Assembly: GCA_030951045.1 (NCBI GenBank)
Contig: JAUZQJ010000032.1
Span: forward strand, 1-43,350
Source: Mariprofundus sp.
Lineage (GTDB): Bacteria > Pseudomonadota > Zetaproteobacteria > Mariprofundales > Mariprofundaceae
Direction: 5' to 3'
Length of the DNA stretch: 43,350 nucleotides
Shown: positions 5,026 through 10,632 of the stretch, in pieces
How positions within the stretch are numbered: the stretch's first letter is position 1
Layout of the letters: each line of letters starts with the position of its first letter
Made by a program: the position numbers and the translations under genes
The notes under the pieces: model-generated
What the model was told of the DNA's origin: nothing
The model's input: only the letters and a program-made list of their open reading frames with translations
Databases searched by the model: none

Positions 5026-6270
5026 TCAATGCGCTTGGATAAGGGTAATTACTTTTTCATAGAGCAGGTAATCATTATTAGCAGCCTGTTGATTGGCCTT
5101 GCGAATATGTGCACCAGCTACAGCAGTCAGCTCATCTGATAGCAGACTCTCATAAAGGCCTTTGTAAAAATTATCGGGGATCACCCGTACCGTGTAACGT
5201 ACACTGCGGGCGTCTGTTGGTAAGGCCTTGAGCAAGAACTGGCGTGTTTCACCCGGCATGATGCGGGTATCACGCAACTCTTTCCAACCATCACCCTGGT
5301 AAGCAACCTCTCTGATAATCTCCCACTGCTGATGCTGCATGATGCTACCGACAGCGTTCAATGCTTCTGCTTCAACAATTACTTTGGGGGTGACGTACGT
5401 TGGAAATGCATGCCCTATCCATGTGGATGTAATGCTGAGATTAGCACTGTGATTCTGTTCGGTTAGTGAAAAGCTGAGCCCTTTTTTGACCATTTTTGGA
5501 TCGTGAATGCCTCTGAATTCATGGGCTCTATCCGGCATGTGACAGACCTGGCATGTGACTCCTTTATCGGAAAAAGAGCTGTTTTTCCATTCTATTAAGG
5601 TATTTTCTAAAGGTTTTCCATTGATTGCCATATAGTCAGGGAACTGATGGCATGATGCACAAAACTGCGACTGTTCAAAATCCTTGGTAGCTGTGAACCC
5701 GCCATGGGCCGGAGTATCTTGTTTACCAACTGCTCCCGTCGTTTTTGGTGGTGGTCCGAAACGATCGCCATTGCGTACATGGCAAACGGCACAACTCACG
5801 CCGGTGTGTCTCAGAGGGAGCAGTTTAGTATCTCGATCGCTCACATCATAATCGGCATCAGCATCAGCATCAAATCCTTCGGCATGTTTCAGACGCAAGA
5901 GAATCGAATCATCCATATCTGTTGGATCTGTATAAAGTTGCTCTTTCAATGGTGCATGGCACACCAGACAATCATTGGCATAGGTATGCCCCTGGCCCGG
6001 GAATTGCCCTACTAGACCTGGTGAGTAGGCGTGCGCATGCAGACTCTTTTTCCATACATTAAATTGAGCGGCATGACATTGTGCACATGCCTCCGGACGC
6101 AGATCTTTTTCAAGTTCAGACCAGTTGTGAGAAGACGGAACCTTGGCAGATGGGTTATCCCAGTAGCCAAGTGGCAGACCTGGATCGATAGCAGCAGCCA
6201 TCAGTATCAAGCCGCCGATAATAGAGATCGCTGCCAACACGGACTGCTTCAAACTCAAGGGTTTCTTCAC
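5026..6270 (-). CDS. Membrane-anchored pentahaem cytochrome c
   Basis: About 414 residues. The start is a GTG at 6270 with GGAG five bases upstream; the open frame runs further but without a ribosome site. One N-terminal hydrophobic segment (about 8-28) can act as anchor or signal. Five CXXCH haem sites follow: CAQCH (about 62), CLVCH (101), CAVCH (160), CASCH (204) and CQVCH (240). Spare His residues can act as distal ligands. The last 150 residues have no haem motif and look like a beta-rich domain. The arrangement recalls cytochrome c554-type multihaem proteins, but I cannot name a substrate. It would act on the periplasmic side in electron transfer. The next gene upstream is the NPC-repeat cytochrome, beyond a repeat element. 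Confidence 0.85.
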   Translation of the reverse strand: MKKPLSLKQSVLAAISIIGGLILMAAAIDPGLPLGYWDNPSAKVPSSHNWSELEKDLRPEACAQCHAAQFNVWKKSLHAHAYSPGLVGQFPGQGHTYANDCLVCHAPLKEQLYTDPTDMDDSILLRLKHAEGFDADADADYDVSDRDTKLLPLRHTGVSCAVCHVRNGDRFGPPPKTTGAVGKQDTPAHGGFTATKDFEQSQFCASCHQFPDYMAINGKPLENTLIEWKNSSFSDKGVTCQVCHMPDRAHEFRGIHDPKMVKKGLSFSLTEQNHSANLSITSTWIGHAFPTYVTPKVIVEAEALNAVGSIMQHQQWEIIREVAYQGDGWKELRDTRIMPGETRQFLLKALPTDARSVRYTVRVIPDNFYKGLYESLLSDELTAVAGAHIRKANQQAANNDYLLYEKVITLIQAH

Positions 6271-6717
6271 TATGACTCCATTCTTAAATCTGTTTAACTT
6301 AGACCAACTCACTATCTGACAGGGTAATTATATTATGTTTTGGCACTAAATGTTCCAAATAGTACAAATTGATTGTTTATCGCTTATGCAAAAAAGAAAG
6401 GAACCAAAGAAATTGCCCGCTAGCAGGTTGCCGATCATACATATTTAAAGCGGAAGAAATCAGCATAGCGCGCCGTTTTAAATCTGTATGATCGGGAGCC
6501 CGAAGGGCTGTCTGGTCTCCGGGCGGGGGGGGCCTTCTTTCGTTCTTTCTTGGGCACGCAAGAAAGGACAAACACAGCCTGAAGTGCTTCATGCCCATTC
6601 AGGCAAATCAGCCCCATACTCTGACAGTTGTTACTGATCTGCGTGCACAAATACGAAATGAAGCAGATATTTCTGTCTATACTTCAGTGTTTAACTGCGA
6701 GAATCTGCGTCTAACTA
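6271..6717. other. Intergenic stretch dominated by an inverted-repeat element
   Basis: No gene is visible between the pentahaem and NPC-repeat cytochromes. The stretch is occupied from about 6391 to 6567 by the nested inverted-repeat element listed separately. Open frames across the element look like translated repeat, not protein. Bases 6271-6390 should hold the ribosome site and possibly a promoter of the pentahaem gene. Confidence 0.6.
6391..6567. repeat. Nested inverted-repeat element (MITE/REP-like)
   Basis: Outer arms are related purine-rich tracts: AGAAAGGAACCAAAGAAA at about 6395-6412 on the plus strand, and AGAAAGAACGAAAGAAGG read on the minus strand at about 6534-6552. Inside them is a 23-base imperfect hairpin: 6431-6453 (starting CCGATCATACA) pairs with 6473-6495 (ending TGTATGATCGG) around a 19-base loop. 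A second small hairpin AGCCC-GAA-GGGCT is at 6497-6509, next to an 8-G run at 6525-6532. No transposase is present. The nested design suggests a non-autonomous mobile or extragenic repeat; copy number elsewhere is unknown. Confidence 0.6.
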
Positions 6718-7335
6718 CTAACGTTGTTCTTTCATAAACTGCATACGCAAGGCACGATAATATGCAGCCATCGCAGTTAACTCTTTTGAATTTTTCCCAA
6801 ACTGTTTTCCTTTCATTGGATTAAGCATGCAGTAATTGATCATCTGATCCAAGGTCACCACATCACCTACCATTTTTACAAAATGTGGGAAATTCTGATT
6901 ACGATCTAAATTCAACAGTTCATGATCTGCATGGCATGAGAGACATGCCAAACCGGATGTACCTAAACTTTCATCTTTCCACATTTTAGCACCGAGGGAT
7001 GCGGCTTCCTGATAGTTCTTAAATGCAGGTTTGCGAATGGGTGTCTTTTGATTTGCCGCACATGGGTTACCCATAGAACATGGGTTGGATTTCATGCTGC
7101 AAGGATTGGAGTGTTTTTTCATGGCGCATGGGTTGCATGGGTTCATATGCTTTTTCATGCTGCATGGGTTACACGGGTTCATATGTTTTTTCATACTGCA
7201 TGGGTTACATGGGTTCATATGCTTTTGCATCCCGCATGGATTGCATGGGTTAGCATGTGATCCAGCCAGGGCCGGGGTGCTAAACAAACCTATGCTGATA
7301 AGCATGGCGTAAATTACTCTTAATATATTATTCAT
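6718..7335 (-). CDS. Exported NPC-repeat protein fused to a cytochrome c domain
   Basis: 205 residues from the ATG at 7335, which has a strong GGAGGAGA six bases upstream; an upstream in-frame start is ignored. A signal peptide ends near PALA|G (24/25). Residues 28-75 are four 12-residue repeats of the form [12 protein letters not shown], followed by degenerate SNPCSM/NPC units to about 92, giving 11 Cys plus many Met and His. Residues about 105-200 form a class I-like cytochrome c: [11 protein letters not shown], haem site CLSCH at 131-135, then a [10 protein letters not shown] segment with candidate distal Met or Cys. The repeats are near-identical at DNA level (36-bp period, 7060-7254). 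I infer a periplasmic redox protein with a soft-metal-binding arm. The metal is unknown. Confidence 0.82.
7060..7254 (-). repeat. 36-bp tandem coding repeats (NPCNPC units)
   Basis: In-frame 36-bp units encode the 12-residue repeat of the cytochrome fusion, most nearly identical over the four full copies and shorter and diverged toward the end. Such arrays can gain or lose units by slippage or recombination while keeping frame. The same unit type recurs at 7849-8019 in the neighbouring gene. Confidence 0.85.
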
Positions 7336-7376
7336 CGGTATCTCCTCCATCATAAATGCCGGTACTCCGGTCATGA

Positions 7377-7724
7377 TGTGGAAGTCGGCATTGCACCCCG
7401 CTTCTTACAACAGATGTTAGAAATATCTCCTGGCCTGGTATCAGTGGTTATGATTTGGCACTAGCGATACGTAAAGTGTTACCATTCCAAATTATCTTCT
7501 TTATTTCGGGAAACGCTTATTGCGAACATAACAAAACAGCAGCGCAAGAGACCTGCATGATTTTAAATAAGCCTATTCATCCAAAAGCGTTACTAGAAAG
7601 GGTCAGAGATGTCATTCTACCATGCCACAAACACCTTTCAGAAAAGCTAAACAACCCCCTCTCAACATGCGTGAATGCCGAATTATATGATTGCCCGTTT
7701 TGTTCACGTAATTTGCTTACATAA
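7377..7724 (+). pseudogene. Remnant of a response-regulator receiver domain
   Basis: This frame has no ATG or ribosome site; it opens after a stop at 7374-7376. From about 7413 it reads like the second half of a CheY-type receiver: NISWPGISGYDLALAIRK corresponds to the phospho-acceptor loop plus helix 3, IIFFISGNAY to strand 4, and ILNKPIHPKALLERVRDVI to the conserved Lys-Pro switch and last helix. The phospho-Asp position is Asn (AAT). The N-terminal half is missing. The tail ends with CPFC and a stop at 7724. It lies on the opposite strand between the two NPC-repeat genes. I regard it as a fossil fragment. Confidence 0.55.
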
Positions 7725-7848: not shown

Positions 7849-8103
7849 TTAATGCCCTTTAGAACAAGGATTACACGGATTCATTTTGTGTTGCATATCG
7901 CATGGGTTGGCATGCTTTTTCATGGCACATGGATTACATGGGTTCATTTTATGCTGCATGGCGCACGGGTTACACGGATTCATCGTTTTTTTCATTGAGC
8001 ATGGGTTGCACGGGTTCATTTCATGATGGCCTGCAAAGGCAGGTGCAGCAGACAGACCCAAGGCAAGCAGCAGTGCGATAGCTAATGTTGTCATCGATTT
8101 CAT
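7849..8103 (-). CDS. Small exported NPC-repeat protein
   Basis: 84 residues from the ATG at 8103, which has GGAG six bases upstream; an ATG two codons earlier abuts that site and is unlikely. The signal peptide ends near AFA|GHH (24/25). The whole mature part is repeat: [36 protein letters not shown], a half unit ANPCDMQHK, and [11 protein letters not shown]. About 60 mature residues carry 9 Cys, many Met and 8 or more His, with no other domain. It lies 74 bases after arsM on the same strand and is followed by a strong hairpin, so it may be the last gene of the ars unit. I infer a periplasmic Cu(I)/As(III)-type metal chelator; no enzyme motif is present. Confidence 0.82.
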   Translation of the reverse strand: MKSMTTLAIALLLALGLSAAPAFAGHHEMNPCNPCSMKKTMNPCNPCAMQHKMNPCNPCAMKKHANPCDMQHKMNPCNPCSKGH

Positions 8104-8177
8104 ATTCATCTCCTCTTTTGTCCCTATTGGGATAACAGGCGGTTAGGCGTTTGAATCCTGAAATACTTACAGTTTGC

Positions 8178-9008
8178 TTAACAACAAGAGGTTGATGAAC
8201 AACCGCCCGGTTTCTTCGCTTCAATGTAAGCCGATACAACATAAGCTTCCACGCCCCGACCGGGTGCCCAATCACGAATAAATTCACGCGAACTGTCTTT
8301 TGGAATAATGCTAATCTGTTCAAAACCAGCATCGGCCATCATGGTCTCCAGTGCATCAATCATGGATGCGCCAGCCATACAGCCTGCATGCAATATCGGA
8401 TCATTTTTCATCTCATCCGGCATCTCCGCTGTTGCCACCACATCGGATATGGCCAGGCGTCCACCCGATTTCAACACACGAAATGCGTCGGCAAATACCA
8501 GCTCCTTATGCGGTGAAAGATTAATCACACAGTTGGAAATAATGATGTCGGCAGTGTTATCGGCAATCGGCAGGTGTTCAATCTCAGCAAGGCGAAACTC
8601 TACATTGCTGAATTTTCCTTTTTCGGCGTTATGTCGCGCCTTGGATAACATCGTGGGAGTCATGTCGATACCGATCACGTGACCGCTCTCACCAACCTCA
8701 CGGGCAGCCAAAAATGCATCAAAACCACCACCACTACCAAGATCAATAACCACTTCACCCGGACGCAGTGAAGCAATTGCACGTGGATTACCACAGCCAA
8801 GGCCCATATCGGCACCATCGGGTACATTAGCCAGATCATCTTCAGAGTAACCCAAGCGTGTGGAGATCAGTGTATTGATCGCCGCATCATCAGAGACGCC
8901 GCAGCAACTGGATTCCACACCGCAACAATCACCGTCATTACTGGCATCTGCCACTTCCGCATAAGATTTACGCACGTGCTGACGCACGTTATCAGCTTTT
9001 ACACTCAT
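8178..9008 (-). CDS. arsM: Arsenite S-adenosylmethionine methyltransferase
   Basis: 276 residues. ArsM methylates As(III) stepwise using SAM. DLGSGGGFDAF (89-99) is the SAM-binding motif I and GIDMTPTML follows. The three Cys known to bind arsenite in algal ArsM are all present in context: C72 in GLGCGNP, C160 in ISNCVINL and C210 in HAGCMAGA. Extra Cys pairs occur near the N-terminus (DCCG, SSCCG) and at the end (GGCSSTSCC), common in bacterial ArsM. A GGAGAAAG ribosome site precedes the ATG. It follows the peroxiredoxin gene by 14 bases and arsS lies upstream, so ArsM supplies methylated arsenic for arsenosugar formation. Very secure. Confidence 0.96.
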   Translation of the reverse strand: MSVKADNVRQHVRKSYAEVADASNDGDCCGVESSCCGVSDDAAINTLISTRLGYSEDDLANVPDGADMGLGCGNPRAIASLRPGEVVIDLGSGGGFDAFLAAREVGESGHVIGIDMTPTMLSKARHNAEKGKFSNVEFRLAEIEHLPIADNTADIIISNCVINLSPHKELVFADAFRVLKSGGRLAISDVVATAEMPDEMKNDPILHAGCMAGASMIDALETMMADAGFEQISIIPKDSSREFIRDWAPGRGVEAYVVSAYIEAKKPGGCSSTSCC

Positions 9009-9022
9009 TTCTTTCTCCGTAT

Positions 9023-9667
9023 TTAAATGGTTTTCAATATTTTTATTATGTCAGTTGGTTCCATGCGTTTGGTATAATCCACATCTACAAAAGCACTCAT
9101 CACCTTGCCATCAGGTGCAATAATATAGGTCGCAGGCATAGGTAGTTCAAAATGATCATTGCCGTGACTGGCTGGCAAATCGATGCCAAAACTCTCATAA
9201 ATAGGCCTCAAACTCTCAGGTAAGGTGAAGACTAAACCATATTGCTTGGCAGTTTCATTGTTCTGATCACTCAACAACGGAAACGTAAGGTTTCCTTTAT
9301 CTCGCGTCTGAGCAGCAAATTCCGGCAGTTCGGGAGCAATGGCGATCAACTGAGCGCCCGCAGCTTCAATATCAGGCAGCGCTTTCTGCAAGGCCTGCAT
9401 CTCCAAATTACAGTATGGACACCAGCTGCCTCGATAGAATGTGATAACAACCACTCCACGCTTTAGCGCTTCAGATAATTTTACTTTCTTACCATTTAGT
9501 TCAGGGAGATCAAAATCAGGAGCATGTTGCCCAGCTTGTAAAGCCCGCTCGGTTAAACCCGAAGATTGTAGTATCTGCACCGCATCATTCATGGTGCTTA
9601 CAATATTATCGGGAACCTGGGCTACGAATCCACGGTTAAACGCTTCAAGTTCATCATGAAGTGCCAT
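9023..9667 (-). CDS. Peroxiredoxin (AhpC/TSA family) of the ars operon
   Basis: 214 residues from the ATG at 9667, which overlaps the arsS stop by one base (TGATG) and has GGAGG just upstream; a longer frame reading into arsS is rejected. After an N-terminal helical segment there is a thioredoxin-fold domain: APDFDLPELNGKKVKLSE, then FYRGSWCPYC with the peroxidatic-type Cys at about 83 and a CXXC partner at 86. NDHFELPMPATYIIAPDG is the cis-Pro/substrate loop. The family reduces peroxides using thioredoxin or a similar donor. Its place between arsS and arsM suggests a job in the same pathway, for example protecting radical or thiol chemistry from oxidation. That is inference. Confidence 0.9.
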   Translation of the reverse strand: MALHDELEAFNRGFVAQVPDNIVSTMNDAVQILQSSGLTERALQAGQHAPDFDLPELNGKKVKLSEALKRGVVVITFYRGSWCPYCNLEMQALQKALPDIEAAGAQLIAIAPELPEFAAQTRDKGNLTFPLLSDQNNETAKQYGLVFTLPESLRPIYESFGIDLPASHGNDHFELPMPATYIIAPDGKVMSAFVDVDYTKRMEPTDIIKILKTI

Positions 9668-10632
9668 CACTCCTCCAATGCTCCGCCGCAACTGGAACCC
9701 TGACCGGCAGTACAGCCATAACAGTGATCCATCACAACAATTGAAGATCCGGAGATTTCCTGTTCAATTAGTTCAGAAAGGTGCGTTGCTAAACCACCCT
9801 CTCTATGTATGGGCAGATTCAGCATTTGATTGAAATCACAATCATAGACATAACCTCTCCAGTCCACGCTTATTAAGCTTTTGCACATCACTTCATCGAG
9901 ATTTTTCTCACTATAAACTTCTTTAAGTAGCTGCATATAAGATGCGAATTTACCTTGTGAAATTAGCGTGCTACCAAAACGTTTTATGGGCATATTGGTG
10001 ATGGTAAAGAGTTGATTAAAGACAATACCAAAACGCAAGTGCAGTTCGCGTTTATAAGCTATTTCCAGTTCACTCTGTGAAGGCGGCAGGTTTGTCCCCT
10101 GTGGATTATAGACCAGTGTTAATGTTAAATCTGAACCCTCGATACCGTACCCGAGTGCATTCAAACGCTGAATGGCTCTAATGCTGCTATCAAACACCCC
10201 TTTACCACGCTGAGCATCAACATTATCACTCAAATAACAGGGCAGCGATGCAACGACTTCGACCTTGTGCTTAGCAAGGAACTCAGCTGTATCACTATAG
10301 TTTTCTTCTTCCAAAATAGTCAGATTACAGCGATCAATGATACGCACGCCCATAGCACTGGCTTGCTCTATCAGGTAAACAAAGTGCGGATTCATCTCCG
10401 GCGCGCCACCGGTCAGATCGAGTGTTTTGATATGTTGCACACGCAAGTAATCAAGCACGGTTTGCACCGTCTTTTTATCCATGATTTCGGTGCGACGAGG
10501 ACCTGCATCCACATGGCAATGCAAACAGGTTTGATTACATAAATAGCCTAAATTAACTTGCAGCGTATTGAGCTTTCCACGAGAGATGGCAGGGAAGTCA
10601 GTCTTCTCTAATAATGGCAGTGTTGCATGCAT
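9667..10632 (-). CDS. arsS: Arsenosugar biosynthesis radical SAM protein
   Basis: 321 residues. Radical SAM cluster motif CNQTCLHC (C32, C36, C39) binds the [4Fe-4S] cluster. LDLTGGAPEMNP (about 71-82) is the SAM-binding GGxP strand, and the C-terminal DUF3641-type region ends in the Cys-rich HCYGCTAGQGSSCGG, likely a second metal or cluster site. This layout is that of ArsS, which transfers a deoxyadenosyl group to dimethylarsenite to form dimethylated arsenosugar precursors. Adjacent arsM supplies the methylated substrate. The ATG at 10632 follows GAGGA at about 15 bases, a long spacing. It is the first gene of arsS-prx-arsM. No efflux gene (arsB, acr3) or arsR lies in the window. Confidence 0.93.
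   Translation of the reverse strand: MHATLPLLEKTDFPAISRGKLNTLQVNLGYLCNQTCLHCHVDAGPRRTEIMDKKTVQTVLDYLRVQHIKTLDLTGGAPEMNPHFVYLIEQASAMGVRIIDRCNLTILEEENYSDTAEFLAKHKVEVVASLPCYLSDNVDAQRGKGVFDSSIRAIQRLNALGYGIEGSDLTLTLVYNPQGTNLPPSQSELEIAYKRELHLRFGIVFNQLFTITNMPIKRFGSTLISQGKFASYMQLLKEVYSEKNLDEVMCKSLISVDWRGYVYDCDFNQMLNLPIHREGGLATHLSELIEQEISGSSIVVMDHCYGCTAGQGSSCGGALEE

Follow-up and report, generated by a model that had tools for sequence, protein, structure and literature searches.

What might a haem protein do with a row of repeated cysteines at its N-terminus? The question is raised by a gene in the window (the whole stretch of 43,350 nucleotides of a Mariprofundus contig that was analyzed here), which encodes a small cytochrome preceded by tandem NPC repeats. 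The answer that we prefer, tentatively and at somewhat below an even chance, is that of a periplasmic thiol redox module which binds soft metals or metalloids, and in which the haem domain would act as an electron relay to a pentahaem protein.

The armed cytochrome and its relatives

The open reading frame runs on the minus strand from an ATG at 7335 to a stop at 6718-6720 and encodes 205 aa (Table 1). An alternative in-frame ATG at 7374 would yield a protein of 218 aa; the hydrophobic signal-like segment, however, begins at 7335. Judged from this segment the cytochrome is probably exported to the periplasm. An earlier note on this DNA had described four near-identical 12-residue NPCNPC units together with a CLSCH haem motif, and both were confirmed exactly where it had placed them. 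More specifically, units 2-4 read MNPCNPC(S/A)MKKH and the first unit deviates, whereas three single NPCs following the four units bring the arm to a total of 11 cysteines. The note was accurate for the reading frame and passed over the two genes that flank it, those of a free NPC-repeat peptide and of a pentahaem cytochrome.

Table 1. Features of the locus, with positions in the window
Feature	Position	Strand	Remarks
Pentahaem c-type cytochrome (MHC), conserved partner	5026..6312	minus	5 CxxCH
NPC-armed SoxA/TsdA-type monohaem cytochrome (CYTARM)	6718..7335	minus	ORF, 205 aa; PF21342 match
N-terminal signal-peptide-like segment, residues 1-25	7261..7335	minus	read from sequence; model helix 4-17
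NPC-repeat arm, residues 27-96, 11 Cys	7048..7257	minus	predicted disorder, pLDDT mostly about 45-50
Four 12-residue units (A/M)NPCNPC(G/S/A)M(Q/K)KH, residues 28-75	7111..7254	minus	
Haem domain, residues 101-205	6721..7035	minus	pLDDT mostly above 90 (predicted model)
Haem attachment motif CLSCH, residues 131-135	6931..6945	minus	
Cys169, aligned with haem-ligand Cys of TsdA heme 1	6829..6831	minus	alignment
Met155, position of TsdA catalytic Arg109	6871..6873	minus	alignment; 81/81 homologues
Met165, position of TsdA catalytic Arg119	6841..6843	minus	alignment; 81/81, partly ascertained by scan pattern
Free NPC-repeat peptide (ARM), predicted to be exported, 86 aa, 9 NPC	7849..8109	minus	between ArsM and armed cytochrome
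Arsenite methyltransferase ArsM, lineage-specific upstream neighbour	8178..9008	minus	NF008823 352 bits, cut-off 263
AhpC/TSA peroxiredoxin-like protein	9023..9661	minus	PF00578
Radical SAM protein ArsS	9667..10632	minus	TIGR04167 464.9 bits, cut-off 300

Matches to the cytochrome were found in many families of a 299-genome sample of the phylum, the weakest of them being ordinary SoxA/TsdA-like proteins. The named relatives belong to Mariprofundus and Ghiorsea (Zetaproteobacteria), Nitrospinota, Tectomicrobia, Nitrospirae, Magnetococcales, bins of Deltaproteobacteria, and further to Gammaproteobacteria, Gallionella, Sideroxydans, Burkholderiales, Rokubacteria and Gemmatimonadota. A match in Cupriavidus metallidurans was discarded as an ordinary TsdA-like di-haem protein.

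A SoxA/TsdA-type haem domain with a changed pocket

The haem domain matches the Pfam model of the SoxA/TsdA cytochromes (PF21342) with 46.2 bits at a cut-off of 27. A profile of 12 homologues compared with the PDB retrieved SoxA (1h31, E 1e-15) and TsdA (E 1e-5), and a Foldseek search with the predicted model put TsdA (4wqc) and SoxAX (1h31) on top, with probability 1.00 and E-values of only 3e-3 to 4e-3. Class I cytochrome c (PF00034) was not among the Pfam matches at E up to 1. The earlier assignment to a class I-like domain was thus right about the CLSCH motif and wrong about the class, which is of the SoxA/TsdA type.

With the Cys-ligated cytochromes of this family (PF21342; 1h31, 4wq7) the domain shares the fold, the CxxCH and an aligned sixth-ligand cysteine. 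The CxxCH (C131/C134/H135) and Cys169 are present in all 81 homologues, although for Cys169 the count is partly ascertained by the pattern used in scanning. In TsdA the ligand of heme 1 is Cys96 of the mature protein (Cys123 of the precursor), and this residue forms an S-thiosulfonate intermediate (PMC4423706, PMC6879331). By homology, Cys169 would be the sixth ligand, giving the haem His/Cys ligation.

In other respects the armed cytochrome differs from SoxA and TsdA. It bears NPC arms and has only one CxxCH, whereas TsdA thiosulfate dehydrogenase is recognized by two haems, and its score with the model for SoxA of the Sox system (TIGR04484) is 45.6 bits, below the cut-off of 110. Moreover, the catalytic residues of TsdA that influence the ligand cysteine and the intermediate, Arg109, Arg119 and Ser127 (PMC4423706), are replaced in an ungapped alignment by Met155, Met165 and Pro173. 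These three are invariant in the 81 homologues and Met174 is found in 80 of them. Contigs were scanned for homologues with the pattern [QE]M[IV][NQ]xC[ML][LVI][NVG]P. Met165, Cys169 and Pro173 lie inside it, so that their invariance is in part a product of the search; Met155 and Met174 lie outside. The NPC-armed proteins obtained by a pattern-free profile search have kept the Met155 equivalent and Met165, and an arm-less sister group (L063, L174, L177) is without the Met155 equivalent.

SoxB was found in none of the 74 genomes of the window's family, and SoxY had no match there either, its control being silent too. Given the change of the catalytic Arg/Arg/Ser to Met/Met/Pro and the lack of SoxB in all 74 genomes, the protein is probably not a thiosulfate enzyme; identity as a thiosulfate dehydrogenase was rejected on the replaced residues and a role in the Sox pathway on the missing SoxB. 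The haem domain lies within a known fold family and yet lacks the marks of its thiosulfate enzymes.

The homology does bring another role of the arm to mind, that of a sulfur carrier in cis. The Cys-ligated haem would form a Cys-S-SO3 or persulfide adduct and pass it on to an arm cysteine, so that the arm would replace SoxYZ. Indeed, SoxA-family enzymes conjugate thiosulfate to a thiolate via the haem-ligand cysteine (PMC4423706), and a YeeE-type sulfur transporter and DUF302, a domain that occurs in sox clusters (PMC5037610), each adjoin the gene in 7 of the 21 beta loci. We nevertheless hold this to be unlikely in view of the Met/Met/Pro set, the single haem and the SoxB (and SoxY) results, to which it may be added that no Sox genes were recognized among the annotated neighbours. 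Such sulfur-type neighbours agree with a chemistry of thiols or sulfur no less than with metal, and to that extent weigh against the module that we prefer.

The NPC arm

All pairwise comparisons of the NPCNPC cores of the armed cytochrome and the neighbouring free peptide yielded 83 third-position differences with the same peptide encoded. With third codon positions so diverse under an unchanged peptide, the repeat is not a recent product of slippage. The zero count of non-synonymous differences, on the other hand, is by construction, since the units were picked by the motif itself.

An independent test is offered by the homologues. The arms of the 81 contain 891 cysteines, 733 in an NPC context and 800 preceded by proline (xPC), and the commonest spacing between cysteines is 3 (233 pairs). 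The claim in the earlier note that this spacing is unlike the CxC/CxxC arrays of metallothioneins is incorrect, because C-N-P-C is itself a CxxC and spacing 3 is the commonest. CxxC-type thiol arrays are common to both; unlike metallothioneins, the NPC arm is predicted to be exported, has the NPC context and is tethered to a haem. No metallothionein family matched the armed cytochrome in the family-model search, and no family model searched covers the NPC arm or the arm-plus-pentahaem module. Repeat strings such as NPCNPC and NPCAAK returned nothing relevant from the open-access full-text literature, although the family may still be described.

The arm can be N-terminal, C-terminal or both, and holds at least three cysteines in 76 of the 81 homologues. 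It is rich in Met and His (NPCAMKKH) in some lineages only and in Ala and Lys (NPCAAK) in others, and hence only the thiols are general. On comparison of the sequences, it is the cysteines that are conserved while the rest of the arm varies. The exceptions speak against a thiol/metal module: the arm is absent from three Gemmatimonadota members (L132, L142, L149), contains just two cysteines in L102 and L138 and none in L175, and in the relative at L062:8598-9491 an acidic (AEGE)n stretch takes its place.

The arm-less members and the (AEGE)n stretch, together with the predicted disorder, would fit the unstructured linker that the earlier note named as its refutation. Such an arm might be a disordered tether, or a tail for docking onto the pentahaem cytochrome, with cysteines engaged in structural disulfides or crosslinks and not in metal binding. 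That is doubtful considering that the cysteine is precisely the arm residue that is conserved, that thioredoxin and CcdA are found among the neighbours, and that arm peptides without a haem are maintained. A free arm gene lies beside the cytochrome in 15 of the 33 zeta loci (a permissive count) and accompanies the pentahaem gene alone in L065, L160 and L163, so that an arm is apparently retained even where there is no haem domain.

The pentahaem partner, the neighbourhoods and a proposed function

The most constant neighbour is the pentahaem gene, which lies within 6 kb in 50 of the 91 loci (27 of 33 zeta; 17 of 27 delta, Nitrospirota, Tectomicrobia and other; 6 of 21 beta), shared ancestry being ignored in this and the other neighbour counts. 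Among the 74 family genomes, 40 have both the pentahaem gene and the arm or armed cytochrome, 26 have neither, and 3 and 5 are discordant; presence agrees in 66 of 74 (Fisher p = 6.8e-12, kinship ignored). The best fold match of the pentahaem protein is the penta-haem c552 5ze8 (E 1.2e-11), of which only the broad relation is used because the model is of modest quality (mean pLDDT only 67). By profile and fold its closest solved relatives, which it resembles with its five CxxCH, are this c552 of Thermochromatium tepidum and the multihaem selenoprotein MccSep/ExtKL (9wt8). The score with the ExtKL/MccSep model NF040886 is, however, 62.5 bits, far under the curated cut-off of 250, and the alignment has neither a Sec nor a Cys at the Sec region of MccSep; with no Sec equivalent, a selenoprotein identity was rejected. 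The segment between the cytochrome and the pentahaem gene (6433-6532) is GC-rich, has an inverted-repeat look and a G run, and occurs once in the genome.

Two haem proteins from neighbouring genes, in hosts that include the Fe(II) oxidisers Mariprofundus, Gallionella and Sideroxydans, could simply be an electron-transfer pair for Fe(II) oxidation or another respiratory chain, with a neutral arm. This seems improbable, since the arm is conserved, the system occurs in numerous organisms that are not known to oxidise iron, and neither the cytochrome nor the pentahaem gene is present in G009 and G044, single-contig members of the genus. The suggestion, made from the sequence beforehand, that the protein is not a plain electron carrier gains support from the Cys-ligated SoxA/TsdA fold, the occurrence of the arm across phyla and the pentahaem partner.

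The thiol redox module that we prefer would consist of a His/Cys-ligated monohaem protein of SoxA/TsdA fold with a disordered NPC arm, the free NPC peptide and the pentahaem cytochrome. The thiols of arm and free peptide would capture soft ions, most likely Cu(I) and possibly As(III) or other thiophiles; alternatively, these thiols might themselves be oxidised under metal or oxidant stress. A haem pocket in which Met155, Met165 and Cys169 replace the substrate-binding arginines of TsdA could then trade electrons with the arm thiolates or the bound ion, and the haem domain would give electrons to the pentahaem protein or take them from it. Where present, periplasmic reductants of the thioredoxin/CcdA type would keep the thiols reduced. 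The anatomy and family of the protein, the conserved partner, the conservation of the arm cysteines and the loss of the thiosulfate residues are established by the comparisons; in the scheme we infer export, Cys ligation, the binding of metal or thiol, the identity of the metal and the direction of electron flow.

A bolder proposal would be that of an undescribed, phylum-spanning periplasmic metal/thiol redox system. Its Cys-ligated haem, set in a Met-bearing pocket, would act on the ions of its own NPC arm, as a metal oxidoreductase or metallochaperone in cis, and would trade electrons with a pentahaem cytochrome dedicated to it; the whole would be an alternative to bufferins. We rate it as unlikely. 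Should the module that we prefer be right, SoxA-fold haem-thiolate cytochromes would reach beyond thiosulfate chemistry: a large branch of them, found among iron oxidisers, Nitrospirota/Nitrospinota and betaproteobacteria, has methionines at the TsdA substrate arginines, thiol arms and in many cases a pentahaem partner. There would then be a periplasmic metal/thiol redox system open to testing, and many unannotated 'NPC-repeat' proteins would gain a function.

The genes directly upstream in the window, ArsS, a peroxiredoxin and ArsM, suggest a module specific to arsenic, in which As(III) would be caught by the free peptide and by the armed cytochrome to serve the arsenosugar route of ArsM/ArsS. 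In the Zetaproteobacteria this trio is often found upstream of the cytochrome (several genera, with ArsM and/or ArsS on the same stretch), and ArsS adjoins the gene in a Magnetococcales genome (L102). ArsM and ArsS are nevertheless missing from most non-zeta loci and are expected in the cytoplasm, whereas the arm carries a predicted export signal. Furthermore, 33 of the 36 good family genomes have ArsS, whether or not they also have the module (p = 0.56). The gene order itself is real, yet it gives no evidence of functional dependence; with ArsS nearly universal and independent of the module, the arsenic-specific role was set aside and is retained only as a rival of low probability.

Outside the zeta loci the neighbourhoods are mixed. 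DUF6969 is near in 13 of the 21 beta loci, thioredoxin, DsbD/CcdA and anti-sigma factors, like YeeE and DUF302, in 7 each and an ECF sigma factor in 4, and two (L140, L145) have a bufferin operon (DUF2282-MNIO-DUF2063-DoxX). In Cupriavidus sp. KK10 a truncated relative of the haem domain has Czc/Ihp-type efflux genes on one side and a thioredoxin/CcdA pair on the other. The combination of thiol reductants, sulfur transport, envelope-stress regulators and copper peptides points to periplasmic thiol/soft-metal handling rather than Fe(II) respiration or the Sox pathway. A soft-metal function of the putative metal arm is plausible in this context of bufferin operons, ECF/anti-sigma factors, Czc-type efflux beside a remnant, and ArsM/ArsS.

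Bufferins are exported Cys-rich peptides that chelate copper in the periplasm and occur in an ECF-sigma context, and one Buf1/Cytochrom_C fusion has been reported (PMC12452194). The NPC module resembles them in its putatively exported Cys-rich peptide, its ECF-sigma context and the known fusion to a cytochrome domain. Unlike these DUF2282/Buf2 copper-binding RiPPs, however, it has another repeat, no DUF2282 and no MNIO: neither the free arm peptide nor the cytochrome matched a DUF2282 precursor, and the MNIO enzyme (PF05114) was not found in the window's genome (86.9% complete), on which ground a reading as MNIO-modified RiPP was rejected. PF05114 is present in 7 of the 74 family genomes and none of these 7 has the armed cytochrome (p = 0.011, post hoc, kinship ignored); the apparent exclusion is only a lead. 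An FGE (SUMF1-like) protein was considered as a Cys-modifying enzyme; the arms have no clear CxPxR target on reading. In the Gammaproteobacteria an FGE-like gene is adjacent in 3 of 7 loci, and in a single locus it forms a fusion with the pentahaem gene. In L124 (7002-9263) the pentahaem cytochrome is fused to an FGE/SUMF1-like domain and adjoins a cytochrome with 22 NPCs; in L128 the FGE-like gene is separate.

Neither RNA families nor defence families were found in the window, and a promoter scan gave fewer matches than in shuffles. A Stenotrophomonas plasmid match is surrounded by sulfur genes (DsrE, TusA, rhodanese). A small exported family ending in YxYSCPLNPTP, for which there was no Pfam or NCBIfam match, recurs near the cytochromes (L133:11116-11598, L126:11600-12169, L110:5574-6032). 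Between the two arm genes of the window, a short open reading frame on the plus strand (7455-7724), judged by reading alone, looks like the C-terminal end of a response-regulator receiver domain (NKPIHPKALLERVRDVI) and is possibly a gene remnant.
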